Source: Clostridia bacterium (lineage in GTDB: Bacteria > Bacillota > Clostridia > Oscillospirales > Butyricicoccaceae). Taken from it: DNA of 64,000 nt. The notes below the pieces were generated by a model. That model made no database searches, was not told the DNA's origin, and was given only the letters and a program-made list of their open reading frames with translations. Positions 38,719-57,010 of this stretch are shown here, piece by piece. The stretch is taken from the NCBI GenBank assembly GCA_017455565.1, contig JAFSZV010000042.1, forward strand, positions 1 to 64,000, read 5' to 3'. A program made the position numbers and the translations under genes. Each line of letters starts with the position of its first letter. The first letter of the stretch is position 1.

Positions 38719-41436
38719 TCAAAGGCGAAGGACGGCGCCGAATTCCGCGGTCAGCACGCCGAGGATTCGCCGGATGATTTCGTCCGCCTCTGCGTCGGTC
38801 AGCGTATGGTCCGGGCTGCGAAGCGCCAGAGAGAACGCCACGCTCTTTTTGCCGGGCGGGACGGGCGCGCCGCGGTAAACGTCGAACAGATCCAGATGAT
38901 CCAACGCCTTTCCAGCGGCGGAGCGGATTGACTGCTCAAGCTGCAGCACATAGAGCGCGTCGTCGCAGACGACGGCAAGGTCGCGCATAGTGGCGGGGAA
39001 TTTGGGAATGGGCTGATAGCGGTGTTCTTGATCCACCAGCTCAAACATCAGATCCAGATCCAGCTCGGCGGCATAAAGCTCCGCGCCGATTCCGTAATTT
39101 TTCAAAACATTGGGGTGGACCTGCCCGGCATGACCCACCGTGCGCTCGCCGCAGCGGATCTCGGCGCACCGTCCGGGATGATAGCTGGGGTCGTCGCTGC
39201 AGGGGAGAAAGACGCAGCCGTGGATCGAGAGCATGGAGAAGACCGCTTCGATACAGCCTTTGAGATGGAAGAAGTCCTCGCCATAGGTGGCCATGGTGAG
39301 CGTCATCCTTTCATCCGGGAGCTGATTGGGATCGACATTACCGTTGTCGGTCAGCTTGGGCAGATAGACCTTTGCCTGCTCAAAAAGGTGGATCTCAGGG
39401 GCACGAAAATTATAGTTCCGTGCGGCGACCTCCAGCATGGCGGGCAGCGCCGTAGTCCGCATCAGGCTCTGATCCTCGCCCAAGGGATTGGTGATGACAA
39501 CGGCCTTTCTCCTCGGATCGTCTTCTGTAAGGGCGATCTTATCCGCCGCCTTGGGACTCATGAAGGCCAGTGTGCGCGCTTCGTTGTATCCGACGGCGTT
39601 GCAGGCGTCGTTGACCAGACGGTCGAACTTCTGCCGTTTGGTCAGGCCGCCCTTGGTAGTCTGGCCGGAAAGCAGCGTCGAGGAGATTTTATCATAGCCA
39701 TAATACCGCGCGATTTCCTCGGCGATATCGGCCTCGCCGTCCATATCGCCGCGCCAAGAGGGGACGGTGACCTTGTCGCCGTCAACGGTAAAGGCCAGTT
39801 TTTCCAGCGTTTTCACCATGAAATCACGAGGCACCTGGGCGCCGATGAGCGCATTGACCCGCTCTGGACGCAGGGTGAGCACGCGCACGGGCTTTTTGAC
39901 GGGATAGGCATCCACGATGCCGCCGATGATCTGGCCCGCGCCCAGCTCTTCCACCAGTTGGCAGGCTCGCTGCAGCGCGGTAACGCAGCCCTCCTGATCG
40001 ACACCGCGCTCAAAGCGGCCCGAGGCCTCGGTGCGCATGCCCAGCCTGCGGGAGGTGGTGCGGATGCTCACGGAATCAAACATGGCGGATTCAAAGACAA
40101 TCATCTGGGTATCTTCGGTGATTTCGCTGTTTTCGCCGCCCATCACGCCGGCGATGGCAACGGCTTTTTTCGGATCTGCGATGACCAGCGTATTGGCCCG
40201 CAGGCTGCGTGTCTGCCTGTCCAGCGTGGTGCAGCGTTCGCCCTCGTCGCTGCGTCGGACGATGATCTTGCCGCCGTCGATGCACTTATAGTCAAAGGCG
40301 TGCATGGGCTGGCCGTATTCCAGCATCACATAGTTGGTGATGTCTACGATGTTGTTGATAGGCCGGATGCCTGCGGCGCGGAGCCGGTCGCGCATCCAGC
40401 GGGGAGAGGGGGCGATGTGAATATTTTTCGCCATGGCGGCGCTGTATCGCGGGCAGAGGTCTGCGTCGCGGATCTCCACCGAAAGATAGTTGCTGACATC
40501 GTCCGCGGTTTCTTTTATTACAGGAGCTGTAAGGGCAAAGGGCTTGTCAAACGTAGCGGCGCTTTCCCGGGCCAGGCCGATGATACTCAGGCAGTCGGGA
40601 CGGTTGTGCAGGATGTCAAAATCAAAAACGATCTCGTCCAGCCCCAGCACGGCGCAGATATCATCGCCGGGCTTGCAGGGATAGCTGTCCGGCAGGATCA
40701 GGATGCCGTCGCTGATGCAGTGGGGAAACTCGGCCTGCTGGGCGTGGAGATCTTCCAGCGTGCAGATGCCGCCGGATTTGGTATTGTAAGCCACCAGATC
40801 GTTTTCGTGCAGGTTGGAGCAGGCGCTCTCGGTCACAACAGCGGCGGCGCCCGTGTCCAGCTTGACGGAGAACAGGCCGTAGCGCGCCGTTATGACAGAC
40901 AGCACCTTTGCCGCCACCACGGGGCCGAAGACCTTGTCGCCGGGCTTGATATCCGCAGGGATCGAGGGCTTCGCGGGATCGAGAGGCTTATAGTCGCCCA
41001 GCAGCGCGGCGGGGATGATGGCGGCTTCCGGAATGTCCCGCTCCTCTAAACGAAGCTCCTTTAAAGAACAGAGCATGCCGTTGGATTCCACGCCGCGCAG
41101 CTTGCCCTTTTCAATGGCGACGCCGCCGGGCAGGGTGGATTTGTGCAGGGCGGCGGGGACCGTGTCGCCCACATGGACGTTCCACGCGCCGGTGACGATC
41201 TGAACGGGCGCCTCCCGGCCCACGTCCACTTGGCAGATCCACATATGATCGGAATCGGGGTGGCGATCCATGGAAACGATCCGTCCCGCAACCACATTGG
41301 AGATCCCGTCGGCGGCGCTTTCCCAGCTGCCGACCATGGTCCCGGCCATGGTCATATCGGCGGCATATTGCTTTGCCGGGACGTTGTGGATCCCCACGTC
41401 GGTATAATCCTTAAGCCAGCTATATGGTAATTTCAT
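38719..41436 (-). CDS. pheT: Phenylalanyl-tRNA synthetase beta subunit, enlarged
   Basis: 905 residues, about 100 longer than usual. Domains in order: N-terminal B1 (MKLPYSWLKDYTD), tRNA-binding OB fold (about 40-130), an extra segment (about 137-243), resumed B1 (DGILILPDSYPCKPGDD), B3/B4 editing region (HNRPDCLSIIGLARE and INNIVDITNYVMLEYGQPMH), B5, the catalytic-like core and the C-terminal FDX-ACB domain. The extra segment looks like a second, divergent copy of the OB fold (VVAAKVLSV versus VVAGRIVSM). With PheS it forms the tetramer that charges tRNA-Phe. It is the last gene of the T-box operon, 16 bases after pheS. Confidence 0.95.
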   Translation of the reverse strand: MKLPYSWLKDYTDVGIHNVPAKQYAADMTMAGTMVGSWESAADGISNVVAGRIVSMDRHPDSDHMWICQVDVGREAPVQIVTGAWNVHVGDTVPAALHKSTLPGGVAIEKGKLRGVESNGMLCSLKELRLEERDIPEAAIIPAALLGDYKPLDPAKPSIPADIKPGDKVFGPVVAAKVLSVITARYGLFSVKLDTGAAAVVTESACSNLHENDLVAYNTKSGGICTLEDLHAQQAEFPHCISDGILILPDSYPCKPGDDICAVLGLDEIVFDFDILHNRPDCLSIIGLARESAATFDKPFALTAPVIKETADDVSNYLSVEIRDADLCPRYSAAMAKNIHIAPSPRWMRDRLRAAGIRPINNIVDITNYVMLEYGQPMHAFDYKCIDGGKIIVRRSDEGERCTTLDRQTRSLRANTLVIADPKKAVAIAGVMGGENSEITEDTQMIVFESAMFDSVSIRTTSRRLGMRTEASGRFERGVDQEGCVTALQRACQLVEELGAGQIIGGIVDAYPVKKPVRVLTLRPERVNALIGAQVPRDFMVKTLEKLAFTVDGDKVTVPSWRGDMDGEADIAEEIARYYGYDKISSTLLSGQTTKGGLTKRQKFDRLVNDACNAVGYNEARTLAFMSPKAADKIALTEDDPRRKAVVITNPLGEDQSLMRTTALPAMLEVAARNYNFRAPEIHLFEQAKVYLPKLTDNGNVDPNQLPDERMTLTMATYGEDFFHLKGCIEAVFSMLSIHGCVFLPCSDDPSYHPGRCAEIRCGERTVGHAGQVHPNVLKNYGIGAELYAAELDLDLMFELVDQEHRYQPIPKFPATMRDLAVVCDDALYVLQLEQSIRSAAGKALDHLDLFDVYRGAPVPPGKKSVAFSLALRSPDHTLTDAEADEIIRRILGVLTAEFGAVLRL

Positions 41437-41452
41437 GCTTTCTTCCTCCTTC

Positions 41453-42472
41453 TCAGAATTGCTTCAGGAAGCGCTCGTCGTTGTCGAAGAGCAGCCGCAG
41501 GTCGTCGATCTTGTAGCGGAAGAGCGTGATGCGCTCTAGACCGACGCCGAAGGCAAAGCCCGTATAGACCTCGGGATCAATGCCGCAGGCCCGCAGCACG
41601 TTGGGATGCACCATGCCGCAGCCCAGCACCTCGATCCAGCCCTCGCCCTTGCACATGGGGCAGCCCTTGCCGTGGCATTTGAAGCAGCTGATGTCCATTT
41701 CCGCAGAAGGCTCGGTAAAGGGGAAGTAGCTGGGGCGCAGGCGGATGGAAGTTTCTTCGCCGTAAAGGGTCTTGGCAAAGGTCTCCAGCGTGCCCTTCAG
41801 ATCGCCCAGGGTGATGTTTTTGTCGATGACAAGCCCCTCAATCTGGTGGAACATGGGGGAATGGGTGGCGTCGAACTCATCGTTGCGGAAAACGCGGCCC
41901 GGCGCGATGATGCGGATGGGGGGCTGGGTCTTTTCCATGACGCGGGCCTGGATGGGCGAGGTCTGCGTGCGGAGCACCATGCTGTCGTTGACATAAAATG
42001 TGTCGGAAGGGTCACGACTGGGATGGGTCTTGGGCGCGTTGAGCATATCAAAATTGTAATGCACCAGTTCGACCTCGGGCCCTTCTGCCACGGAATAGCC
42101 CATACCGGTGAAAATGTCGATCACCTCGTCCAGAACGGTGGTCAGCGGATGCTTTTTCCCCAGCGTGATCTTTTTGCCGGGCAAGGTCACGTCCAGCGTT
42201 TCCTTTTTCAGACGGCGCTCCAGCTCAAAAGCGGCGGCCCGCTGTCCGGCTTCTTCAATGGCGGCTTCGATTTTGCCGCGGACCTCGTTGGCAACCTGCC
42301 CGATGATGGGGCGCTCTTCTGCCGTAAGCTGACCCATGCCGCGCAGAATGGCAGTCAGCTCGCCCTTTTTGCCCAGATAGCGGACGCGCGCGGCCTCCAG
42401 CGCCTCTTTGGCCTCGGCAGATCCGATCTCAGAAAGCGCCTGATCCAGGATCTGTTGCAGTTTTTCTCTCAT
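41453..42472 (-). CDS. pheS: Phenylalanyl-tRNA synthetase alpha subunit
   Basis: 339 residues, standard. A coiled-coil N-terminal arm (about 1-90) precedes the class II catalytic core with motif 2 ([19 protein letters not shown]), [15 protein letters not shown] near 245 and the [11 protein letters not shown] motif 3 near 310. [17 protein letters not shown] cysteine pattern is present in the C-terminal half, as in many clostridial PheS. It lies 25 bases after the metallo-hydrolase gene. Confidence 0.96.
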
Positions 42473-43118: not shown

Positions 43119-43375
43119 AAAAGAAAAGCCTCCGTCCTCTTCTGGGACGAAAGCCTGCGCTTCCGCGGTACCACCCGCATTCCCGGCCAATGCCGGGCAC
43201 TCTTTGCCGGTAACGGGGCTGCCGCCCGTGCCTACGCAGCAAAATGCCTTCAACACAGGTGCTCGAAAGGGAACTTCCCGCAAACCGTAACGCAGGCGGC
43301 TCTCAGCCGGTGACCGCCATTCTCTGAACGTTCCGCAAATACGGTACTCGCTTTGTCATTGCATCAATATTTGAT
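43119..43375 (-). promoter_or_regulatory. T-box leader with Phe (UUC) specifier
   Basis: On the minus strand the leader contains Stem I with the specifier loop CCCTTTCGAGCACC, where TTC at 43267-43265 reads as a phenylalanine codon. It then has the T-box GGGTGGTACCGCGG, whose TGGT can pair with the ACCA end of tRNA-Phe. The terminator GCTTTCGTCC-cagaaga-GGACGGAGGC followed by TTTTCTTTTT ends just before the first gene's ribosome site. Uncharged tRNA-Phe should favour the antiterminator. The specifier agrees with the downstream pheS and pheT. Confidence 0.93.
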
Positions 43376-43586: not shown

Positions 43587-43615
43587 TTGCAACAAATGCC
43601 CGCATCCTGTATGAT
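43587..43615 (+). promoter_or_regulatory. Sigma-A promoter of the uracil permease unit
   Basis: TTGCAA at 43587-43592 and TATGAT at 43610-43615, 17-base spacing. The region 43411-43586 between the two divergent promoters is AT-rich and shows no gene. Confidence 0.7.
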
Positions 43616-43643
43616 AAAATAAGAATCAAAGGAGGCGAGGGGC

Positions 43644-43709
43644 ATGAAGCGCGGCGAAAGCACAATCCTGCAGATGGCGGCGCCGTCTCCGTTTTTTCTA
43701 TTCTTATGA
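43644..43709 (+). CDS. Leader peptide upstream of the uracil permease
   Basis: A 21-codon frame, MKRGESTILQMAAPSPFFLF plus a final Leu, begins with ATG eight bases after a perfect AAAGGAGG. The last codons are T-rich (TTT TTT CTA TTC TTA) and the stop lies five bases before the 5' arm of a strong terminator. A ribosome finishing the frame would cover that arm. The arrangement is that of a transcription-attenuation leader, and the U-rich end resembles the UTP-sensitive pyrBI leader of enterobacteria. The peptide itself is unlikely to have a job. Confidence 0.6.
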   Translation: MKRGESTILQMAAPSPFFLFL

Positions 43710-43714
43710 TTTTG

Positions 43715-43755
43715 TCAGCATTTCTATCGTTGATCGACGGAAATGCTGATTTTTT
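43715..43755 (+). terminator. Attenuator hairpin before the uracil permease
   Basis: TCAGCATTTC (43715-43724) pairs perfectly with GAAATGCTGA (43740-43749), followed by six T residues, only seven bases before the AGGAGGG of the permease gene. As no gene ends here, its place between promoter and gene marks it as an attenuator. Confidence 0.8.
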
Positions 43756-43772
43756 AATTTAGGAGGGTAAAG

Positions 43773-45110
43773 ATGAAAGAGAAAAATGAGAAAAAGGGCC
43801 TCGGCAATGAGGCGGTCTACGACGCTCGCACGCTGGGCACACCCAAAATGCTGATCCTGGGCCTTCAGCATCTGTGCGCCATGTTTGGCGCCACGGTCGT
43901 CGTCCCTATCCTGGTCTCCGGCTTCGGCCTGCCGATGTCGGTCCAGACGACGCTGCTGATGGCCGGTCTCGGCACACTGCTGTTCCACCTGTGCACCAAA
44001 TTCAAGGTCCCCGCGTTCCTTGGCTCTTCTTTTGCTTATCTGGGCGGCTTTTCCATGGTCGCCACGCTTCCTGCCTATGAGGGCATGGATCCCGAGACCA
44101 AGCTGGCCTATGCGCTGGGCGGCGTGGTCGTGGCCGGCCTGCTGTATCTGGTGCTTGCGCTGCTCTTTAAACTGGTGGGAGCCAAAAAGGTCATGCGTTT
44201 CTTCCCGCCCATCGTCACCGGTCCCATTATCATCCTCATCGGTCTGAATCTGGCAGGTTCCGCCGTTTCTCAGGCCAGCCAGAACTGGCTGCTGGCCCTG
44301 CTCGCTATCGCGGTGGTCGTGATCGCCAACATCTGGGGCAAGGGCATGATCAAGATCATTCCCATCCTGCTTGGCGTGGTGATCTCCACCATCGTCGCGG
44401 CGCTCACCGGCAATATGGATTTCTCCGCTGTGCATTTGGCCGGCTTCCTGGGCCTGCAGAAGTTCGTTTTGGCGAAGTTTGACTTCTCCGCGATCTTCGT
44501 CATGGCACCCATCGCCATCGCCGCCATGATGGAGCACATCGGCGATATCTCCGCCATTTCTTCCACCACAGGCAAAAACTTCATCGAGGATCCCGGCCTG
44601 CACAGCACCCTCATGGGTGACGGTTTGGCAACTTCGCTTGCCGCCATGTTCGGCGGCCCTGCCAACACCACCTACGGTGAAAACACCGGCGTTTTGGTAC
44701 TCTCTAAGGTCTACGATCCCAAGGTTGTCCGCCTGGCCGCCTATTTCGCCATCTTTCTGTCCTTCTCGCCCAAGTTTGACGCACTGGTTACGTCGATCCC
44801 CGCCGCGGTCATCGGCGGCATCAGCTTCATCCTTTACGGCATGATCTCCGCGGTGGGCGTCCGGAACATCGTGGAAAACCGGGTTGACCTGACCAAGTCC
44901 CGCAACCTGATCATCGCTGCCGTAATCTTCGTTACCGGCCTGGGTCTGCCCGGCGTGACCTTCACCATCGGCAGTGCCACCATCACCCTCACCGGTATGG
45001 CCATCGCCGCTGTGGCCGGCGTTCTGCTCAACGCCATCCTGCCCGGCAACGATTACGAGTTCGGCACCTCTGCCGAGGCCGACAGTTCCGCCAATCTGGG
45101 CGCGTATTGA
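43773..45110 (+). CDS. uraA: Uracil permease (NCS2 family)
   Basis: 445 residues with fourteen expected membrane helices. The family hallmarks are GLQHLCAMFGATVVVPIL near 29-46, GSSFAYLGGF near 84-93, MEHIGDISAISSTTGKNF near 252-269 and GGPANTTYGENTGVLVLSKV near 294-313. The two catalytic Glu residues of UraA-type carriers fall in MEHIG and YGEN. It takes up uracil, or possibly another nucleobase, with protons. AGGAGGG precedes the ATG. The attenuated leader upstream fits pyrimidine control. Confidence 0.92.
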   Translation: MKEKNEKKGLGNEAVYDARTLGTPKMLILGLQHLCAMFGATVVVPILVSGFGLPMSVQTTLLMAGLGTLLFHLCTKFKVPAFLGSSFAYLGGFSMVATLPAYEGMDPETKLAYALGGVVVAGLLYLVLALLFKLVGAKKVMRFFPPIVTGPIIILIGLNLAGSAVSQASQNWLLALLAIAVVVIANIWGKGMIKIIPILLGVVISTIVAALTGNMDFSAVHLAGFLGLQKFVLAKFDFSAIFVMAPIAIAAMMEHIGDISAISSTTGKNFIEDPGLHSTLMGDGLATSLAAMFGGPANTTYGENTGVLVLSKVYDPKVVRLAAYFAIFLSFSPKFDALVTSIPAAVIGGISFILYGMISAVGVRNIVENRVDLTKSRNLIIAAVIFVTGLGLPGVTFTIGSATITLTGMAIAAVAGVLLNAILPGNDYEFGTSAEADSSANLGAY

Positions 45111-45670: not shown

Positions 45671-45780
45671 AGTTTAACCCTCCTGCACCATTGTATGTAG
45701 CTTCCGGCCTGTTTGGGAAGGGAAAAAGCTTTTTTTCTTTACAGACCTTTCGCTTAGAGAAGATCCGGTTTTCACCTGCT

Positions 45781-45809
45781 TTGACACGCTATCGGAAACA
45801 TGCTATGAT
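45781..45809 (+). promoter_or_regulatory. Sigma-A promoter of psuK-psuG
   Basis: TTGACA at 45781-45786 and TATGAT at 45804-45809, 17-base spacing. Confidence 0.8.
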
Positions 45810-45831
45810 AGCTTCGAATGGAGGGATCGTT

Positions 45832-46752
45832 TTGCGGGAACAGATCATCGGGATCGGCGGCGCGAACGTTGATCTTTGCGGAAGGGCCAGCGGCCGGGTG
45901 GTTCCGGGCGACTCCAACATTGGGAGCATCCGCATTTCAGCAGGCGGCGTTTGCCGGAACATCTGTGAAAACGTCGTAAAATTGGGAACGCCCGCCGCGC
46001 TGATCAGCGTTGCCGGCGACGATGCCAATGGCGATTTTCTGCTGCGGCGCTGCGAAGCAGCAGGTCTGGATGTGAGCGCCGTTCACAGGATCTCGGGGAA
46101 ACGCACGGGAGCCTATCTTTCCATCCACTCCGGCGATGGAGAAATGACAGCGGCCGTCAATGATATGGAGATCGTTTCCTGCATTACGCCGGCGTTTCTC
46201 ACCCCATATATCCAACGGATCCGTGCGGCAAAAGCGATTTTGATCGACGCGAATCTTCCGCCCGACACCATCCGCTGGATCGGGGAGACCTTTTCAGACC
46301 GTCCCATCTTTGCCGACCCGGTGTCCTGCGCGAAGGCGGAAAACCTGCTTCCTGTTCTGAAGCGGCTGTTTTTGCTGAAGCCCAATCAAACAGAGGCCGA
46401 GACGCTCACGGGCTGTCATGATCCGCAGACCAGCGCGGCAGCGCTGCACAAAATGGGCGTCAGACATGTCTGCGTCAGCTCCGGCGCCGACGGTGTGGCA
46501 TATTACGGCGAGCATGGAAGCTTGCTGACAAGGCCAAAGACTTTACGGTCTTTTCCCAATGCTACCGGCGCGGGCGATAGCCTGACGGGCGGTTTGCTGG
46601 CCGGTTATGCGCAGGGAATGCCGCTGGAAGAAGCGCTGCGTTTTGCCGTCACCGCCTCGGTGCTTACCTTGCAGAGCGCCGATACCATCCGCCCCGACCT
46701 GAGCAGGGAACTGGTCATGAAATCACAAAAGGAGTGCTTCTGTTATGCTTAA
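45832..46752 (+). CDS. psuK: PfkB-family pseudouridine kinase
   Basis: 306 residues of the PfkB sugar-kinase family: GIGGANVDLCGRASG near 8-22, SAGGVCRNICENVVKLG near 39-55 and the anion-hole motif NATGAGDSLTGG near 243-254. Adjacency to psuG identifies it as the kinase that phosphorylates pseudouridine. The start is TTG at 45832, supported by GGAGGG six bases upstream; no ATG fits. It overlaps psuG by eight bases. Confidence 0.88.
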   Translation: MREQIIGIGGANVDLCGRASGRVVPGDSNIGSIRISAGGVCRNICENVVKLGTPAALISVAGDDANGDFLLRRCEAAGLDVSAVHRISGKRTGAYLSIHSGDGEMTAAVNDMEIVSCITPAFLTPYIQRIRAAKAILIDANLPPDTIRWIGETFSDRPIFADPVSCAKAENLLPVLKRLFLLKPNQTEAETLTGCHDPQTSAAALHKMGVRHVCVSSGADGVAYYGEHGSLLTRPKTLRSFPNATGAGDSLTGGLLAGYAQGMPLEEALRFAVTASVLTLQSADTIRPDLSRELVMKSQKECFCYA

Positions 46753-47659
46753 AGATTATCTTTCGATCCGTCCGGAGATCCAAAGCGCGCTCAGCGCCGG
46801 AAAGCCCGTCGTGGCGCTTGAATCCACGATCCTTTCCCACGGAATGCCGTATCCGCAGAATCTTGATTTCGGGCGCAGGGTCGAGAAGATCATCCGTGAC
46901 GAGGGCGCTGCTCCCGCCACGATCGCCATATTGGACGGAAAGCTCAAGGTCGGCCTGAACGACGCCGAACTGGAACGCATGTGCCGTGCCGAAGACGTGG
47001 GTAAGGTGAGCCGCCGGGATGTTCCGGTATATCTTGCCACAGGCAAGGCGGGCGCGACCACCGTTGCTACCACCATGCTGATTTCCGAACTGACTGGTAT
47101 CCGCGTATTTGCCACCGGCGGCATCGGCGGCGTCCATCGCGGCGCGGAAACAACAATGGATATTTCCGCCGACCTGCAGGAGTTGGCGCACACCTCGGTG
47201 ACGGTGGTCAGCGCAGGCGTTAAATCCATTCTGGATATCGGACTGACGCTGGAATATCTCGAAACGATGGGCGTTCCTGTTTTGGGCATGCGGACAAAAG
47301 ATTTTCCCGCTTTTTATTGCCGCGAGAGCGGATTTAAGGTGGATTACGCGCTGCGGGACGAAGAGGAAGCGGCGCGCATCATGAAGGCAAAGTGGGACGT
47401 CGGCATGAAGGGCGGCATGATCGTCGCGAATCCGATCCCAGAAGAATATGCCATGGACAGCAAATACATGAACGGCATCATTGCGCAAGCCGTTGCCGAG
47501 GCGAAAGAAAAGGGGATCCGGGGTAAAATGATCACGCCGTTTTTGCTGGCGCGTATCGTAGAACTCACGGGAGGCGAATCGCTGGCATCCAATATTCAAC
47601 TCGCGTTCAACAACGCCCGCTGCGCTTCGCGCATCGCCGTGGCTTACAGCAGGCTGTAA
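46745..47659 (+). CDS. psuG: Pseudouridine-5'-phosphate glycosidase
   Basis: 304 residues, normal length. The family motifs are ALESTILSHGMPYPQN near 22-37, KAGATTVATTMLI near 100, FATGGIGGVHRGAE near 121-134 and SAGVKSILDIGLTLE near 157-171, which holds the catalytic Lys. It splits pseudouridine 5'-phosphate into uracil and ribose 5-phosphate. With psuK it salvages uracil from modified RNA, in keeping with the uracil permease nearby. AAAAGGAG lies upstream of the ATG. Confidence 0.95.
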   Translation: MLKDYLSIRPEIQSALSAGKPVVALESTILSHGMPYPQNLDFGRRVEKIIRDEGAAPATIAILDGKLKVGLNDAELERMCRAEDVGKVSRRDVPVYLATGKAGATTVATTMLISELTGIRVFATGGIGGVHRGAETTMDISADLQELAHTSVTVVSAGVKSILDIGLTLEYLETMGVPVLGMRTKDFPAFYCRESGFKVDYALRDEEEAARIMKAKWDVGMKGGMIVANPIPEEYAMDSKYMNGIIAQAVAEAKEKGIRGKMITPFLLARIVELTGGESLASNIQLAFNNARCASRIAVAYSRL

Positions 47660-48079: not shown

Positions 48080-51000
48080 ATGAAGCAGTTTTTTAAAAAG
48101 TCCACCGCGCTTCTTCTGACCTGCTTTATGGTGCTGGGCATGCTCCCCACGGGGATCTTTGCCATCGACATCGGCAGCGAAGCCGACAGGACGCTGACGC
48201 TGGGTGCTGGGCAGAATCCCTATCATGCGGAAGTCCTGGTTTCCGGCTTCGACGGAGAAGAGGGCGTCGCGTCCGCGACCCTCTGGTACAGGGATGGTCC
48301 GTTCCAGCAGAGGGACTTGGCCAATCTTCGCGTCCGGCTGATCAACGGCGACGACGTCTATACCGCGGAAGCGGAAATGGACGAGCTGGAATCGGTGAAG
48401 TTTAACGGCGGTGATTACGTTGTAAAGACCTTCAACAACGGAAGTCCCATCGCCCTGAAGCCCGATCACAGGTTCGTCTTTGAGTATCAGCTGATCGTTG
48501 ATCCTGAAGGCACGTGGCAGGAGGTCGACGGCGATAATGACATCGGCTTTGACTTTGCCGACATCACCGTTGCGCCCGCTGAGATCACCGGCGCCATCCC
48601 GGGCGAAGAGCAGACCATTACGGTCACCACCAACGAGACTGACGACGCGAAGCTGCTCTTCACTTATAACGGCGTAGAAACAGACGGCGCCTTTGAAAAC
48701 GGCGAGGCGACCTTTGCCTTTTCGCCCGTTGCGGCAACCAGAGGTCCCGCCAAGTCGGTTGAGGTCCTGATCTATGATGTGCCTGGAAAGCTGAACAAAA
48801 AGATCACCGTTCCCGTTGCGTTTCTGGACTACAACGTCACCTTCAACATGAACGGTCACGGCGATCAGGTCCCCCAGCAGACTGTGGAAGTCGGCGGGAT
48901 GGCCGCCGAGCCCACGCCCGCTCCCGATGAGGACGGCTGGGATTTCATGGGCTGGTATCGCGACGATCCTGATACCCTGTGGGATTTTAATACGGTCCTG
49001 GATGGCGACCTGACGCTGAACGCGCTGTGGGAGCAGACCGAGATCGCGATGCTTGTATACCCTCAGACAATCGATCCCGCTTATGACGGCGAAGAGTATA
49101 CGATTACCGTCACCCTGACGGAGAGCAACGTGGGCAACGTCCAGTTCGCCTACAACGGCAAAACCGTCCGTGTCCCCGTGGAACCCATCCCCGGCGGCCA
49201 GGGCGAGGCCACGTTTACCTTCACCGCCGTTGAAGGCGCGGACACCGTTACGGTTATCGCTTACAACGTGCCCGAAAGGGCCGACAACGAAGCCACTGTC
49301 GATCTGGTCTTCGACAATGTCTGGACCGTCACCTTTGACATGAACGATCCTACCGGCGAAACGGAGCAGGTTGCTCCGCAGAAGGTCCGGGATCATGGCT
49401 TCGTCACTGAACCCGCCCAGCCCTCCCGGGACGGCTATACCTTTAAATGCTGGCTGGACGAGACCGGCACGCGGTATGAGTTTGACACGCCTGTTGAGTC
49501 CGACCTTGTTCTGACTGCAGACTGGGAACCGGTCCTTGTCACCGTTACCATTGAAGAAGAGGACCATCAGATTACCGCGCTGGATCAGTGGCCGCCCCTT
49601 GCGGATCAGGATCCCGATGCGCCCGGCTACCAGATTTACCAGTACGATACGGTTGAGTTTACGGTCACCCTTCCTGAGGGCTATGATCCCGCCACTCTGA
49701 AGGTCACGGCCAACGGCGTCGCGCTCAATCCCATTGAGATCAACGGCACCGCGTATAAATACAAATATGAGGCCAAGACCGATACCGCGTTCAAGATCAC
49801 GGCCCCCAAGAAGTTCGTTTATACCATCGCCATGTCCGTGGGCGAGCACTATACCGCGGGCATTCTGGATGATATGACGATCTACGGCACCGTGGAGTAT
49901 GGCGACAGCTACCGCTTCACCGTGCGTCCCGACAATGGCAAGAAATATCCCATCAAGGCTGTCTATGTCAACGGCAAGCTGATGGACGGCACCTTCCCCT
50001 CCGCCGTCCAGATGGACTTCACCGTTGAAAACGTCACCGAGAACCAGACCATTCAGGTCGTCATGGGCGAGATGCAGGATTACACTGTCACCTATATCGT
50101 CCGCGACCGCCTGTATATGACCCAGAAGGTCACGCAGGCCGTTTCCGGCGACACCCTGCTGACCCCGCCTGACGCTCCCGTTGTCGAGGGCTATACCTTC
50201 GTCGAGTGGAACACCAGACAGGACGGCACCGGCGACACCTTTGACGCTACTTATGCCATCGCCGGAGACCTGGTGGTCTATGCCCAGCTCGAAGCCATTA
50301 CCGGCGTCATCAAGTACGACATGAACGCCGACGGCGACGCCACCGATCCCGCCGCGCTCCGCGATACGGAGAAGACCTGGGGTCAGGCAGTCCAGCTGGA
50401 TACCACCGTTCCTACCCGCGAAGGCTACGACTTTAAGGGCTGGGCCACCAGTGCCGACGGCCCTGTGGTCTATCAGCCCGGTGACACTTATTCCACTGAG
50501 ATCGAGGGCGACAGCGTCACGCTGTATGCCGTCTGGGAGGCTCAGACCTTTACGGTCGAGACCAACAGCGGCACTGGTTTCACCGTCGATTCTTATGAAA
50601 AGGCCGTGAATTACGACGGCAGCGTCACCATCACCTTCCACGCGGACGAGGGTTACCGTGAGTTCCTGCCCACCGTCAGCATCAGCCCCGACGCGGGTTA
50701 CACCTCTGATTGGGATGTTAATGCTGAACCCGCTGAGGACGGAACTTATACCATCACCCTGAGCAACGTCAAGACCGACATTTACGTTTCCATCAACGTC
50801 ACCAAAAACGAGACCTACACGGTCACGTTCTACACCGCGTTGCAGGATGATCCCATCGTCACCGAGATCTATCAGACGCAGGAAGTGGAGTATAACAAGT
50901 GCGCCACCCAGCCCGCCGCCCCCGTGATCGAAGGCTACACCTTTATGGGCTGGTTCACGTCTGAGAACGCCGATCCCGAGACCGATACGCCGTATGATTT

Positions 51001-54000
51001 CACCGCTCCCGTTACCGGCGTTCTGGATCTCTATGCCATCATGGAGCCCATCGTTCTGACCGTCACCCTGCCCGACATTTCTGACGGCTGGACCATTGAT
51101 CCCGCGACCGGGGACCACGATGTGGCTTACGGTGAGAACTTCACGTTCACTATCACCGTTGCCGAGGGCTTCGACGCCTCCAATATGATGGTCGCCTCCA
51201 ACGGCATGGCACTAACCCCCGTTGAGACCAATGCCGATGCCCAGGGCGAATCCACCTGCACGTTCACCATCTACAATATCAAGGAAAACCAGACTGTTAC
51301 CGTTGTGAACGTCGTCCGCCGGACCATTACCATTACTTATATTGATAATGGCGGCGAAGGCGGCCCCGGTCAGGAAGTCGTCAACTACTATGTTGACGGC
51401 CGCGACGACAACGGCTACATCTCCATGGTTGAACCTTCCCGCGTCGGCTACACGTTCGCCGGCTGGGCTCTCACCAATGACGCGCAGCCCGGCGACGCAG
51501 GCATCTATTTCCCCGGCGATGTTGCCGACTTCACCGCCGACACCACCCTCTATGCCGTTTGGGAAGCAAAGTCGACGACCATCATGCTGACTGCCGACGT
51601 AGACGAGCAGTATGAGGGTAAGGACATCGTCCTGACTGCCGAGGTCAATTCTGATGATCTTGCCACCATCAGCTCCGGCACCGTGATTTTCTATCGCATC
51701 AGCCGCGACGGGCTGGATGATCCGTATGCCAACAGCGAGCGTATCGGCACCGCCACCGTCGCCGCCAATCTGGCCATCATTACCGTTCAGGCCACCGATT
51801 GGATCTTTGCCGACATGGCGGAGAACAACAACTACGATTGCATCTGGGCCGAGTTCATCCCCGATGAGGGCGACGGTTACAGCGCCTGCGACACGCTTGG
51901 CCTGAATGCTAACGAGTATGCGGAAGTAAGAGTCCTGTCCACCGCCATCACCTGGGAGCTGGGCAGCAACGACGGCGATCTGGCTGAAAACGCCAATGTC
52001 CTCACCATCACCGATGAGGAGGGTAATTCTGTGGACAGCATGGTAGCCGGCCACCAGTACACACTGACCCTGCCCGCTGTTTACGCGCTGGACAATTACA
52101 AGATGCTGGAAGCCGACACCGACTACACCGTTGAGTGGCAGTATCTGGCGCCCACCGGCGACTGGGCCACTTACACCGACGGCGCTGCCGGCGGCACCTG
52201 CACCGTCTATCCCGAGTATTCCCAGTATTCCTTCCGCGCCAAGGTCACGCCGCTTGCCGGCGCCACCACCGAGTATCTGAAGGCCGCCAAGTACAACGAG
52301 GACAACGATCCCGAGGTCTATACCGAGATCGTTCCCGACGAGTATGCTGCCTTCCTGCTCACCAAGGCGACCGAGAAGACCGAGAAGGAAGACGTCAATG
52401 TCACCGTTACCATCGTTGACAAGATCACCTCTACCGAGGATGTGGACGTCTACCAGCTGGATAAGCTCACCATCTACGCCGAAGTGGCTCCCGCCGGCGA
52501 GTCCGCCGAGATCCCCGACGGCACCGTTACCTTCTACTATCTCAGCGAAGACGGCGAATATATCAAGATCGGCGCCGCCGAGTTGGAGAAGAAGGACGGC
52601 ATCATGAAGGCTGAGATTACCACCACGGCACTTCCCGTTGCCAAGGAGACCAACACCAAGCTCGACGTCAGCGTAACCGCTGTCTACGAGGGCAACAAGT
52701 CCTTCAACGCCAGCGCCGCCTATGACGAAGAGACAAAGGCCATCACCGTTGCTGACGAGTACACCGGCGAAACCACCGATGCCACCGTCACCGTCTGGTC
52801 CTCTGTCATCTACGTCAACGAGGATGTGGAAAACGTCGCAGACTTCTTTGATCCCACCGATGACAACGGTATCGTCATCGGCGTCGACGGCGGCGCCGTC
52901 CTCGCCAACGAGACCAGCGTCACCCTGATGATCAGCGACATCTACACGTTGGATCATCCCGAGCTGGATAAGCTGAAATACGGTGTGGACTACGAAGTCA
53001 AGTGGCAGATTCTGAACAACTTTGCCGCTTACGAGGATAACCTCGCGGGCGCGCCCTGGGAGGATCTGGATGCCACCGGCCTGAGCTGCAAGCTCAATCC
53101 TGTGAAGCAGGGCAGCGCCTACCGTGCTGTCGTGACTGCTCTGGAGAGCGTTCCCACCATGGGTTCCTACTCTGAGTTCGCACAGGATATTTCCGGCCGC
53201 CGCGTCTATTACTCCAACATTCTGGTGGCAGCCGACGGCGACACCACGCTCACCGTCACGATCAACACCAGCAACACCGACGAAGGCTATGAAGGCATCG
53301 TGGAGGGTGAGACCGTCAAGATCCACACTTACGCTGCCGGCGCTTCCGGCGCCACGCCCGTCAGCCAGATCACCGCTGCAGTCGAGAAGGACGGCGAGGA
53401 AGTCTGGACCGAGACAAAGACCGACGTCAACGGCTATACCTTCTTTGAGTGGCCCACTGAGGAGCCCGGCTTCTACACCCTGATTGTCACCGCCGAGCCT
53501 CAGAACGGTTACGAACCCATTACCATTATCCGCAACCTGATCGTCCGCGACGATGATTACAGCTTCGACGTCATCGAAGACACCTTTGTTTACGATGGCA
53601 AGCTCCAGGGTCTGGATGTGGAAGCCACCGATATGTGCGACGACTTCGACGCCATGGCGCAGGCTGAGTGGTACGTGCTGTACTACGATGCCGACGGCAA
53701 CATGGTCGAGCCCACGCAGGCCGGCGAGTACAAGGCTGTCGTCAAGCTGGCTGCTTCCGCTCACTGGACCGAGAAGACTCTGGAAGCCACGCTGACCATT
53801 GAGCAGCGCAAGGTCTCCGTTGAGGATCTGGTCGCTCAGGCCAAGGTCTACGACGGCACCACCGATGCCAACCTGGTGGAAGTCGTTCTGGCCGACGCCA
53901 AGACCGACGAGACTACCGGTCTGCCCAATGAGGACACCGGCGTCATCAACGGCGACAGCATCTATGCCACCGGTAAGGGCGTTCTGAGCAGCGCCGACGC

Positions 54001-57000
54001 CGGCGAGCAGACGCTTTCTGTCACCGACGTGGTCCTGGGCGGCGACGACGCCGACAACTACGTGATCGACGATACTTCCTACACCGAGAAGATCATCGTC
54101 CAGCGCAGCCAGGTCAAGGGCGCCATCGCTCCCTCCACCTATCAGTTCACCGGCGACGACCTCACCGTTCCCGCTGAGGAGATCTACCTGATCGATCAGC
54201 AGGGCTTCGAGATCGCGGCTGAGAACTACGAAGTCACCTATTATTATCACCACGGCGAAGGCGTTGAAAAGGTCGATGCCATGAACAAGCTGGGCATGTA
54301 CACCGTCATCGCCAGACCCGACCAGGATAACTACAAGGGCGGCGCTGTCCAGACCATCTATGTGGTCGAGGGCGAAGGCACCGCGGCTGATGTGGACAAG
54401 AGCGCCGTCAGCGCGCTGATCACCATCAACGATACCGTTGAGCTGTTCAGCGACGAGCTGAAGGGCGTTTCCGCCACCGCCACCACCGGCGAGATCGACA
54501 AGATCGAGTATCACGACGGCAGCTGGACCACCACTGTTCCCGCCAAGGCCGGTCGTTATCTGGTCAAGGTCACTGCCTCTACCGACGACGTGGCCTACGG
54601 CATCTACACCATTGTGAAGGCGCATCCCGTTCTGACGCTGTCTGCTGAGGATATGGAATATGATTCCGCCCGGTACGATGGTGAGATCACGTTCGTCAAC
54701 GAAAGCGACAACAGCGCCGAGGTTTACGGCACTGCTGCCGGCGACCACATCCGCGGCGCGGCTTACGAGGCTCCCACCGAAGTCGGTCAGTACATCGTCA
54801 CGGCCCACGTGGGCGAGACCGAGAACTACACTTCTCACGAGGTGAGCGCTCCCTTCGCCATCACGCCCAAGGCCCTGACCATCACGGCCGACAGCTGGCA
54901 GCGCCGCCAGTATGGCGCGTTCCCGGATATGACCGCCACCTTTGAGGGTCTGGCTACCGAAGGCGTTGCTCCCGACACCTCGCTGCGCGACGTCCAGATC
55001 CAGCCCGAGTTCATCTTCAACACCTATGAGAACGTTGACATGACCACGGTCGGCACCTTTGTGGTGGAACCCATCTCCGCGCTGGCTTCCAACTATGCCA
55101 TCACCTATGTTAACGGTCAGTACACCGTCACCGATATGAGCAATCCTCCCAAGCCCGAGCTTGCGATCCACGGTATGATCGACAACGGAACGGGTGAAGA
55201 GATCGCTTACTACGGCGACGAAATCCAGCTCTACGCCTATGGCAACATGATGAACGGCGTGGAGAACAACTCCAGCGTTTATGCCTGGGAGATCGTCAGC
55301 GGCCCCGCTTCCATCAACGATCAGGGCCTGATGACCATGGATCAGGATCTCAGCGCGGACAATGAAGTCACCGTCAAGCTGACCCGCGGCACCGGCGCCG
55401 AGGCCATCAGTACCACCCTGACCTTCACCGTCTTGAAGAAGGAGATCAAGGTCACCGTTCCCGCCTATGATCTGGTGTTCAATGGCGAAGAACAGAGCTA
55501 TGACGACACCCTGCCTTATGCTTCCGAAGGCGATGCCGAAGTGGAGATCCTGGACGGCACTGCCCGGACGGATATCGGCACCAACATCGTTTCGGCGCAG
55601 GTTGCTGAGACCGAGGACAACTACCAGTCCGAGGTCTACTGCGGTCCCTTCACCATCAATGACAAGGAAGTCACCGTGAAGCCCGAAAAGCCCGACACCG
55701 TCACCTACGGTGATCTGGTTGTGTATCCCGATCCCAAGTACACCGAAGAAGGCACCGTTAACGGCATCGACGCACTCACCGACGCCGAGGTGGTTTCCGT
55801 GGCCGACGTGTACAACAATCTCGATGTGGCCTACTGGTACGAGATCCTGCTGGCCGGCAGAGAGAACATGAACTACAACGTCAAGTACGTGACCGCCAAC
55901 GACGCTGAGAGCGTTGAGATCGAAGAACTCGACTTGACCGTGACCCTCGGCTCCCACAAGGATACCGAAGGCATCACCAACGGCTCTCTCGATCCTGAGC
56001 CTGCCTATCCCGAGAACGGCGCCGAAGTCGCCGCGCTCAACTTCGAGCAGAACGGCTTCCGGATGTACGGCGAACCTAACCGCGTGATGGATTATGTGAT
56101 TGAGGCGCTCATCGAGGGCGATTCCGAGGCCGATCTGGTTGAGCTGCTGAACAAGCTGGTCATCTTCGAGAAGTTGATCGACGCCGACGCCAACATCAAG
56201 TACACCGATCCCATGACCGATCCTACCACCGCGACTTACGACCAGTACATGGAAGGCGTCACGGAGGATTATGAGATCGCTGACGGCGGCATCGACTTCG
56301 TCAACTACAATGTCGACGTGATCTCCGGCGCTCAGAATATCTATCAGCGGCCCGTCACCCTGCGCGGTCCCGATGAGGAGAATCCCAATGAAGTATCCCT
56401 CTTCATCAACGACCTGCAGGATGAAGAGAGCCTGCTGGCTGCTCTGGAGGCGGTCCTGGTTGCTGAGAAGTACACCGACGCCAACGGCAACGAAGTCGGC
56501 GGCCTTGCCACCCTGCTGAAGCATACCATCGCGGATCTGGATCTCCAGATCGTCTGCGAGCCCGCGCTGGCTGACATCACTGACGACACCGAGACCGTTA
56601 CGGTCACCATCACGGTCGGCAATCCCAACTACTGGATGGAGCCCGCTTTCGTGCTCACCGTCAACATCCTCCGCGACTACTACAGAGTTGACTACGTCAG
56701 CTTTGGCCGCACTTCCGCTACCATTACGCTGACCCATGTCTATCCCGACGGCACCGAAGTGAGGGAGTGGCTGCCCGGCGACAGCAAGGGCAAGGTCAGC
56801 CAGTCGCTGAAGTACGTCATCTACGCCTACGACGAGGAGAGCGAAGATCAGTCCTATGACCACTATAAGGAGATCACCCCGCTGTATGAGTACACCATGA
56901 AGGCCGGCACGCAGCAGGGCAGATACACCGTTTCCTACAAGCGGCTGCCCGCCGGCAAGTACAAGACCTTCGCCGTCGCTGAGGGCTACACCCTGATCGG

Positions 57001-57010
57001 CGCAAACTGA
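48080..57010 (+). CDS. Giant secreted repeat protein with InlB-type and MBG/YDG-type domains
   Basis: 2976 residues. A signal peptide (about 1-28, ending GIFA) is followed by a beta-rich region to about 250. Six InlB B-repeat-like units lie at about 251-317, 414-484, 668-741, 742-821, 912-989 and 1081-1163, each with a GYTFxGW-like core and an ALWE/AVWEA-like end. Long Ig-like stretches follow, then YDG/MBG-type domains near 1910-2007 (KVYDGTTDANLVEVVL), 2262-2353 and 2455 onward. No LPXTG, SLH or membrane anchor is seen at the end (YTLIGAN). Codons end mainly in C or G and the ribosome site is strong, suggesting high expression. An SLH-domain gene lies 78 bases downstream. Likely a surface or matrix protein; ligand unknown. 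Confidence 0.88.
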   Translation: MKQFFKKSTALLLTCFMVLGMLPTGIFAIDIGSEADRTLTLGAGQNPYHAEVLVSGFDGEEGVASATLWYRDGPFQQRDLANLRVRLINGDDVYTAEAEMDELESVKFNGGDYVVKTFNNGSPIALKPDHRFVFEYQLIVDPEGTWQEVDGDNDIGFDFADITVAPAEITGAIPGEEQTITVTTNETDDAKLLFTYNGVETDGAFENGEATFAFSPVAATRGPAKSVEVLIYDVPGKLNKKITVPVAFLDYNVTFNMNGHGDQVPQQTVEVGGMAAEPTPAPDEDGWDFMGWYRDDPDTLWDFNTVLDGDLTLNALWEQTEIAMLVYPQTIDPAYDGEEYTITVTLTESNVGNVQFAYNGKTVRVPVEPIPGGQGEATFTFTAVEGADTVTVIAYNVPERADNEATVDLVFDNVWTVTFDMNDPTGETEQVAPQKVRDHGFVTEPAQPSRDGYTFKCWLDETGTRYEFDTPVESDLVLTADWEPVLVTVTIEEEDHQITALDQWPPLADQDPDAPGYQIYQYDTVEFTVTLPEGYDPATLKVTANGVALNPIEINGTAYKYKYEAKTDTAFKITAPKKFVYTIAMSVGEHYTAGILDDMTIYGTVEYGDSYRFTVRPDNGKKYPIKAVYVNGKLMDGTFPSAVQMDFTVENVTENQTIQVVMGEMQDYTVTYIVRDRLYMTQKVTQAVSGDTLLTPPDAPVVEGYTFVEWNTRQDGTGDTFDATYAIAGDLVVYAQLEAITGVIKYDMNADGDATDPAALRDTEKTWGQAVQLDTTVPTREGYDFKGWATSADGPVVYQPGDTYSTEIEGDSVTLYAVWEAQTFTVETNSGTGFTVDSYEKAVNYDGSVTITFHADEGYREFLPTVSISPDAGYTSDWDVNAEPAEDGTYTITLSNVKTDIYVSINVTKNETYTVTFYTALQDDPIVTEIYQTQEVEYNKCATQPAAPVIEGYTFMGWFTSENADPETDTPYDFTAPVTGVLDLYAIMEPIVLTVTLPDISDGWTIDPATGDHDVAYGENFTFTITVAEGFDASNMMVASNGMALTPVETNADAQGESTCTFTIYNIKENQTVTVVNVVRRTITITYIDNGGEGGPGQEVVNYYVDGRDDNGYISMVEPSRVGYTFAGWALTNDAQPGDAGIYFPGDVADFTADTTLYAVWEAKSTTIMLTADVDEQYEGKDIVLTAEVNSDDLATISSGTVIFYRISRDGLDDPYANSERIGTATVAANLAIITVQATDWIFADMAENNNYDCIWAEFIPDEGDGYSACDTLGLNANEYAEVRVLSTAITWELGSNDGDLAENANVLTITDEEGNSVDSMVAGHQYTLTLPAVYALDNYKMLEADTDYTVEWQYLAPTGDWATYTDGAAGGTCTVYPEYSQYSFRAKVTPLAGATTEYLKAAKYNEDNDPEVYTEIVPDEYAAFLLTKATEKTEKEDVNVTVTIVDKITSTEDVDVYQLDKLTIYAEVAPAGESAEIPDGTVTFYYLSEDGEYIKIGAAELEKKDGIMKAEITTTALPVAKETNTKLDVSVTAVYEGNKSFNASAAYDEETKAITVADEYTGETTDATVTVWSSVIYVNEDVENVADFFDPTDDNGIVIGVDGGAVLANETSVTLMISDIYTLDHPELDKLKYGVDYEVKWQILNNFAAYEDNLAGAPWEDLDATGLSCKLNPVKQGSAYRAVVTALESVPTMGSYSEFAQDISGRRVYYSNILVAADGDTTLTVTINTSNTDEGYEGIVEGETVKIHTYAAGASGATPVSQITAAVEKDGEEVWTETKTDVNGYTFFEWPTEEPGFYTLIVTAEPQNGYEPITIIRNLIVRDDDYSFDVIEDTFVYDGKLQGLDVEATDMCDDFDAMAQAEWYVLYYDADGNMVEPTQAGEYKAVVKLAASAHWTEKTLEATLTIEQRKVSVEDLVAQAKVYDGTTDANLVEVVLADAKTDETTGLPNEDTGVINGDSIYATGKGVLSSADAGEQTLSVTDVVLGGDDADNYVIDDTSYTEKIIVQRSQVKGAIAPSTYQFTGDDLTVPAEEIYLIDQQGFEIAAENYEVTYYYHHGEGVEKVDAMNKLGMYTVIARPDQDNYKGGAVQTIYVVEGEGTAADVDKSAVSALITINDTVELFSDELKGVSATATTGEIDKIEYHDGSWTTTVPAKAGRYLVKVTASTDDVAYGIYTIVKAHPVLTLSAEDMEYDSARYDGEITFVNESDNSAEVYGTAAGDHIRGAAYEAPTEVGQYIVTAHVGETENYTSHEVSAPFAITPKALTITADSWQRRQYGAFPDMTATFEGLATEGVAPDTSLRDVQIQPEFIFNTYENVDMTTVGTFVVEPISALASNYAITYVNGQYTVTDMSNPPKPELAIHGMIDNGTGEEIAYYGDEIQLYAYGNMMNGVENNSSVYAWEIVSGPASINDQGLMTMDQDLSADNEVTVKLTRGTGAEAISTTLTFTVLKKEIKVTVPAYDLVFNGEEQSYDDTLPYASEGDAEVEILDGTARTDIGTNIVSAQVAETEDNYQSEVYCGPFTINDKEVTVKPEKPDTVTYGDLVVYPDPKYTEEGTVNGIDALTDAEVVSVADVYNNLDVAYWYEILLAGRENMNYNVKYVTANDAESVEIEELDLTVTLGSHKDTEGITNGSLDPEPAYPENGAEVAALNFEQNGFRMYGEPNRVMDYVIEALIEGDSEADLVELLNKLVIFEKLIDADANIKYTDPMTDPTTATYDQYMEGVTEDYEIADGGIDFVNYNVDVISGAQNIYQRPVTLRGPDEENPNEVSLFINDLQDEESLLAALEAVLVAEKYTDANGNEVGGLATLLKHTIADLDLQIVCEPALADITDDTETVTVTITVGNPNYWMEPAFVLTVNILRDYYRVDYVSFGRTSATITLTHVYPDGTEVREWLPGDSKGKVSQSLKYVIYAYDEESEDQSYDHYKEITPLYEYTMKAGTQQGRYTVSYKRLPAGKYKTFAVAEGYTLIGAN

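Follow-up and report, generated by a model that had tools for sequence, protein, structure and literature searches.

The locus described here raises the question of how transcription of a putative uracil permease gene in a member of the Clostridia is set by the short leader that precedes it. UTP-sensing leader-peptide attenuation is a textbook enterobacterial device, and for Bacillota the standard teaching is that PyrR controls the pyrimidine genes. The DNA analysed, referred to as the window, is a stretch of 64,000 nucleotides from a Clostridia bacterium (genome G000), in which the leader occupies positions 43587-43773. The comparisons presented below point to a pyrBI-like, ribosome-dependent transcription attenuator that would sense pyrimidine triphosphates and above all UTP, a reading given a probability of about 0.7.

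Anatomy of the permease leader

An earlier note on this DNA had described a promoter, a ribosome site, a 21-codon frame with a U-rich end, and a stop codon 5 nt before a 10-bp hairpin followed by six Ts; direct reading together with the scanner confirmed each of these elements (Table 1). The leader frame has its own ribosome site, the five nucleotides between its stop codon and the stem read TTTTG, and the terminator stands between the frame and the permease gene. Since the gap between hairpin and permease is only ~22 nt, there is no room in it for a second promoter. The hexamer TATGAT is kept in an alignment of four leaders of the window's genus, and a -10-like hexamer lies 5′ of the leader frame in 42 of 43 non-redundant leaders. 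The possible pause hairpin has no general equivalent at the corresponding position across leaders (mean z -0.19).

Table 1. Coordinates of the leader features, the permease gene and the PyrR-like loops (window positions unless a locus is named)
Feature	Position	Strand	Description	Basis
Sigma-70-type promoter	43587-43615	+	-35 TTGCAA (43587-43592), 17-nt spacer, -10 TATGAT (43610-43615)	Promoter scan, 9/12 consensus positions
Leader-frame Shine-Dalgarno	43630-43635	+	AGGAGG, 8 nt 5′ of ATG 43644	Direct reading; same-genus alignment conservation
Leader frame	43644-43709	+	21 codons, MKRGESTILQMAAPSPFFLFL, stop TGA 43707-43709	Scanner; equivalents in 43 non-redundant orthologues
G+C hairpin	43672-43688	+	Immediately 5′ of U-tract; may act as a pause hairpin or a weak additional terminator	Promoter/hairpin scan; conservation absent
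U-rich tract	43692-43705	+	TTTTTTCTATTCTT at leader-frame end; proposed UTP-sensitive pause region	Direct reading; U content across leaders
Intrinsic terminator (putative attenuator)	43715-43755	+	10-bp perfect stem and U6; arms TCAGCATTTC (43715-43724) and GAAATGCTGA (43740-43749), TTTTTT (43750-43755)	Direct reading and scanner
Permease Shine-Dalgarno	43761-43766	+	AGGAGG	Direct reading
UraA-like NCS2 uracil permease	43773-45110	+	Putative regulated gene	TIGR00801, 322 bits, over cut-off
PyrR-like loop, pyrR-pyrC gap	L073 11453-11468	-	CAGAGAGNNNNGCAAG, one mismatch	
PyrR-like loop, pyrR-pyrC gap	L074 5324-5339	-	CAGAGAGNNNNGCAAG, one mismatch	
PyrR-like loop, pyrR-pyrC gap	L075 1917-1932	+	CAGAGAGNNNNGCAAG, exact	

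The product of the downstream gene scores 223 bits against E. coli UraA and 70 bits against UapA. Because its score for the strict uracil-permease equivalog lies below the cut-off (316 bits, with 477 required), we infer its uracil substrate from its UraA-like sequence, and the gene placed under the leader would accordingly be a pyrimidine gene. In two other genomes, permease orthologues lie directly 3′ of pyrR; Bacillus pyrimidine permeases likewise adjoin pyrR.

Other features were recorded on both sides of the locus. Downstream (3′) of the permease, a gene pair (45691-47659, +) encoding a PfkB kinase and an Indigoidine_A/PsuG-like protein probably serves pseudouridine breakdown, which yields uracil, and a 2976-codon frame (48080-57010, +), which starts with a signal-peptide-like segment and contains repeated stretches resembling domains, probably encodes a giant surface protein. 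On the other side, a T-box leader (43140-43368, -; 101 bits), divergent from the permease leader, is located upstream of pheS/pheT-like genes (38719-42472).

Recurrence and geometry of the leader frame

Permease orthologues were gathered from named genomes and from whole genomes belonging to the genus, family or order of the window's bacterium. The short frame with terminator and U-rich end for which the earlier note had suggested looking among orthologues does occur in them: 51, all from Clostridia, combine a ribosome site with a 14-41-codon frame that ends at a terminator; 43 non-redundant leaders remain once those more than 80% alike are dropped. The anatomy is common to these 43, and the leader peptides differ between genera. 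A qualifying leader frame occurs in 38 of the 56 non-redundant orthologues that have a leader terminator, which is more than chance would provide, since dinucleotide shuffles of the 150 nt upstream lead one to expect 2.5; none of 20,000 simulations reached 38 and none went above 10.

Examples of the arrangement have been found in Pseudoflavonifractor capillosus (L093, MQAQMMAFMCWAYHFHLPI) and in metagenome-assembled genomes of Oscillibacter (L084, MLYSMHSACMAAGSFSPFSFV) and Lawsonibacter (L089, MFRSVFFCGPVGFGLSISVSR). In the nearest relative, whose permease is 96% identical, the frame ending is different, the U-rich tract is kept and the terminator is identical. In Faecalibacterium hattorii (L137 1861-2004, +), a 47-codon frame, spotted by eye as its length exceeded the scanner range, runs across the terminator and stops on the start codon of the permease (TCATGA). 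Many other permease orthologues, among them most of those from Lachnospiraceae, lack the device.

Scans of ~300 kb of the window's genome and ~400 kb of G395, a relative within the order, gave no convincing case besides the permease leader. In 22 carrier genomes, searches around carA and pyrE, limited to operon heads within ~1.5 kb, returned only spurious matches, and nothing of the kind was found upstream of the pyr operon of G004. Among the genes tested, the device thus appears to be specific to the permease. The open-access literature yielded no description of a leader of this kind in Clostridia; an earlier account in subscription papers may exist.

Of the 43 leaders, 38 have their frame end at or within the hairpin, compared with 5 of 76 ordinary genes, and the stem often begins with the last bases of the stop codon. 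Such a geometry, as read from the sequences, fits occlusion of the terminator by a ribosome. In E. coli, a stop codon placed 5 bp before a terminator lowers termination from ~90% to <10% in a translation-dependent manner (PMC4824070).

The same observations bear on whether the frame could simply be the gene of a small, possibly membrane, protein with its own terminator, the permease being promoted separately. Peptide ends are fairly hydrophobic, as such a gene might have, but this explanation is very unlikely: the distance from hairpin end to permease is mostly 2-39 nt, too short for a promoter, the peptides are unlike between genera, the stops overlap the hairpin unlike those of ordinary genes, and synonymous positions are biased towards U.

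No antiterminator is predicted in these leaders. The 5′ arm of the terminator pairs with upstream RNA at 0.31, against 0.48 in shuffles, and none of the 43 leaders exceeds z=2. The absence of an antiterminator is the expectation for a device of the pyrBI type, in which the ribosome itself would have to come within hairpin-blocking distance of the stem; the position of the leader frame would allow this.

The U-rich tract and the nature of the signal

The U-richness of the frame end is strictly local. In 38 leaders, U makes up 43-54% of the 30 nt 5′ of the stem and 26-34% of the next 30 nt upstream, so that the block is confined to ~30 nt before the stem. Values for the same 30 nt are 26-38% in 13 orthologues without a leader frame, and in two carrier genomes the 30 nt preceding terminators at ordinary gene ends contain 19-29%. 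Within the leader frames, the U fraction is 0.48 in the last 24 nt compared with 0.26 in the first 24 nt (P=1.6e-7) and reaches ~0.5 over the last 18 nt; codon shuffling gives z=8.3 for this enrichment. The preference extends to synonymous positions, NNT and NNC codons standing at 187:78 in the last eight codons of the leaders and at 1087:3618 in the permease genes. The E. coli pyrL leader, found as a control by the same scanner, is alike, its stem being preceded by 30 nt with a U fraction of 0.40. Since A is depleted in the Clostridia tracts (~0.1, with U at ~0.5), the tract is not merely unstructured RNA. Pairing between the tract and the ribosome site was considered as a cause of the U-richness and rejected, being just mildly above shuffles (mean z -1.2; -0.5 in the window).

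The codons within the tract could themselves be the signal, a ribosome stalling at leader Phe or Leu codons when the charged tRNA is short. The earlier note had named these codons as a second possible signal; the window frame does end in PFFLFL, and across leaders the final eight codons specify Phe more often than any other residue (63/344). Ser, Leu, Val and Ile are common as well, however, with no single amino acid dominating and no codon type repeated across leaders, so that the repeated codons for a single amino acid expected of such a leader are not seen. The synonymous preference for U also speaks against the proposal, as does the nature of the gene, a uracil permease not being a Phe or Leu gene. 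Moreover, given the lack of an antiterminator, ribosome stalling upstream would not keep the terminator from forming. Amino acid attenuation is therefore highly improbable. The trp, his and leu leader-peptide attenuators resemble the Clostridia leaders in that a ribosome on a leader frame decides the fate of a terminator, but they rely on stalling at specific codons and on an antiterminator, neither of which is seen here. Sequence comparison shows that the conserved property is U itself rather than a peptide or an amino acid.

The role of U must also be weighed against control by translation alone, in which leader translation blocks the terminator and the regulated step is that translation, or the general supply of ribosomes, without UTP-dependent pausing. 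Two leaders of the window's genus (L004, L006) are in line with it, having short frames that enter the hairpin and little U-richness; in these, translation alone may set readthrough. The mild pairing between tract and ribosome site would also suit such a mechanism. For the leaders as a whole it is unlikely, as a sharply bounded U-block elsewhere, with U favoured over A (0.5 vs 0.1), would serve no purpose in it, and the gene under control encodes a pyrimidine transporter.

The tract is rich in U+C, and CTP may therefore matter as much as UTP. Rho is drawn to UC-rich RNA (PMC13323073), which would be the rationale for seeing the tract as a Rho entry site and the device as Rho-based. The likelihood of this is close to negligible: the tract spans just ~30 nt and is dominated by U, a strong intrinsic terminator follows it at fixed spacing, and the frame ends at the hairpin.

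The preferred reading, UTP-sensing attenuation of the pyrBI type, would operate as follows. Polymerase would start at the leader promoter and produce an RNA with a strongly initiated 21-codon frame. With ample UTP, it would speed through the U-rich frame end and leave the ribosome behind, allowing the hairpin (43715-43749) to fold and transcription to stop before the permease. When UTP is short, polymerase would slow down in the U-rich tract and the ribosome would close the gap. Once at the stop codon, 5 nt before the stem base (and on it in many relatives), the ribosome would cover the 5′ arm with its footprint, block the hairpin and permit transcription of the uracil permease. The computable tests that could have refuted the pyrBI-like interpretation were run and none did so; at the sequence level they support it.

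Control of pyrimidine genes in carrier genomes

The principal regulator to be considered in Bacillota is PyrR, and the window's own genome encodes it (G000:C69:28549-29076; 232 bits, over cut-off), as do two near relatives with the device (G005, G008); it was not found in the other carrier genomes searched. The claim of the earlier note that no PyrR-type sequence occurs in the leader holds, an Rfam search that included the PyrR element (RF00515) giving no match and the window containing no PyrR loop motif. The missing Rfam match, and the unlikeness of leader sequences between genera, also speak against a riboswitch aptamer. In contrast, the pyrR-pyrC gap of the same species carries a PyrR-like loop (Table 1). 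This loop is not detected by the RF00515 model and is probably, judging from its sequence, a PyrR-binding site in a divergent PyrR leader. Some permease orthologues elsewhere do have PyrR leaders (L154, L143), both below the Rfam gathering score. For the window's leader, with no sign of PyrR control found in its sequence, government by PyrR or another ligand-binding RNA is extremely improbable. In the window's species, biosynthesis would thus probably be under PyrR and uptake under the leader frame.

Carriers also differ in their biosynthetic capacity. In G390, G153 and G415, whose genomes are 97-100% complete, no carA, carB, pyrE or true pyrB was found at the thresholds used, and these organisms are probably auxotrophic for pyrimidines and retain the putative attenuator of the permease. 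In G000, carB was found (C69:1732-4854) and no carA at E ≤ 1e-30; its carA may be missing through a cut at the contig end.

Among known systems, enterobacterial pyrBI with its pyrL leader is the closest. Both have a leader frame that is, or in the Clostridia would be, translated, 30 U-rich nucleotides before an intrinsic terminator, no antiterminator and a pyrimidine gene downstream. They differ in that the 44-codon frame of E. coli crosses the hairpin whereas Clostridia frames mostly stop at or inside it, the F. hattorii frame resembling pyrL in reading through the terminator, and in that the E. coli target is aspartate transcarbamylase rather than a uracil permease. PyrR attenuators of the Bacillus type (RF00515) likewise act by transcription attenuation on pyrimidine genes of Bacillota, permeases included, but require PyrR and a conserved binding hairpin that is missing here; the sensor in the Clostridia leaders would instead be polymerase and ribosome. 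Regulator-free sensing of UTP by polymerase is known for uptake and salvage genes through reiterative transcription and start-site switching at E. coli codBA, upp and carAB (PMC6245113). Those mechanisms act at initiation through a U-run in the first few nucleotides, and the start region of the window (AAAATAAGAATC) has no U-run. What would be new here, to judge from the sequences, is a pyrBI-like mode of action in another phylum and on another gene, with the stop codon placed right at the terminator.

The main difficulty for ribosome-dependent control concerns the relative speed of the two machineries. Bacillota are classed as organisms with runaway transcription (PMC13323073; background in PMC7858274), under which a leader ribosome of the ordinary kind would lag too far behind the polymerase. 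Control by the ribosome would then be weakened unless a real pause of polymerase occurs, and a nucleotide-dependent pause could be the kind of signal able to overcome it. Median stop-to-terminator distances, taken as a possible proxy for coupling, are 15-23 nt in G000 and G395, no different from E. coli, in a comparison based on small numbers and no Bacillus control.

It is fairly probable that a broad group of Clostridia, mostly with PyrR-less genomes, governs uracil uptake through UTP-dependent polymerase pausing and a chasing ribosome. If this is true, transcription and translation would be coupled, at least locally, in Bacillota, in conflict with the runaway-transcription label, and pyrBI-type attenuation would have arisen independently in Clostridia with the stop codon built into the terminator base. 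A widespread leader that is workable solely if the ribosome catches polymerase would make the question of coupling in Bacillota testable with simple reporters in gut Clostridia. For the organisms themselves, the leader would supply pyrimidine control in genomes devoid of PyrR, including those of apparent pyrimidine auxotrophs reliant on uptake.
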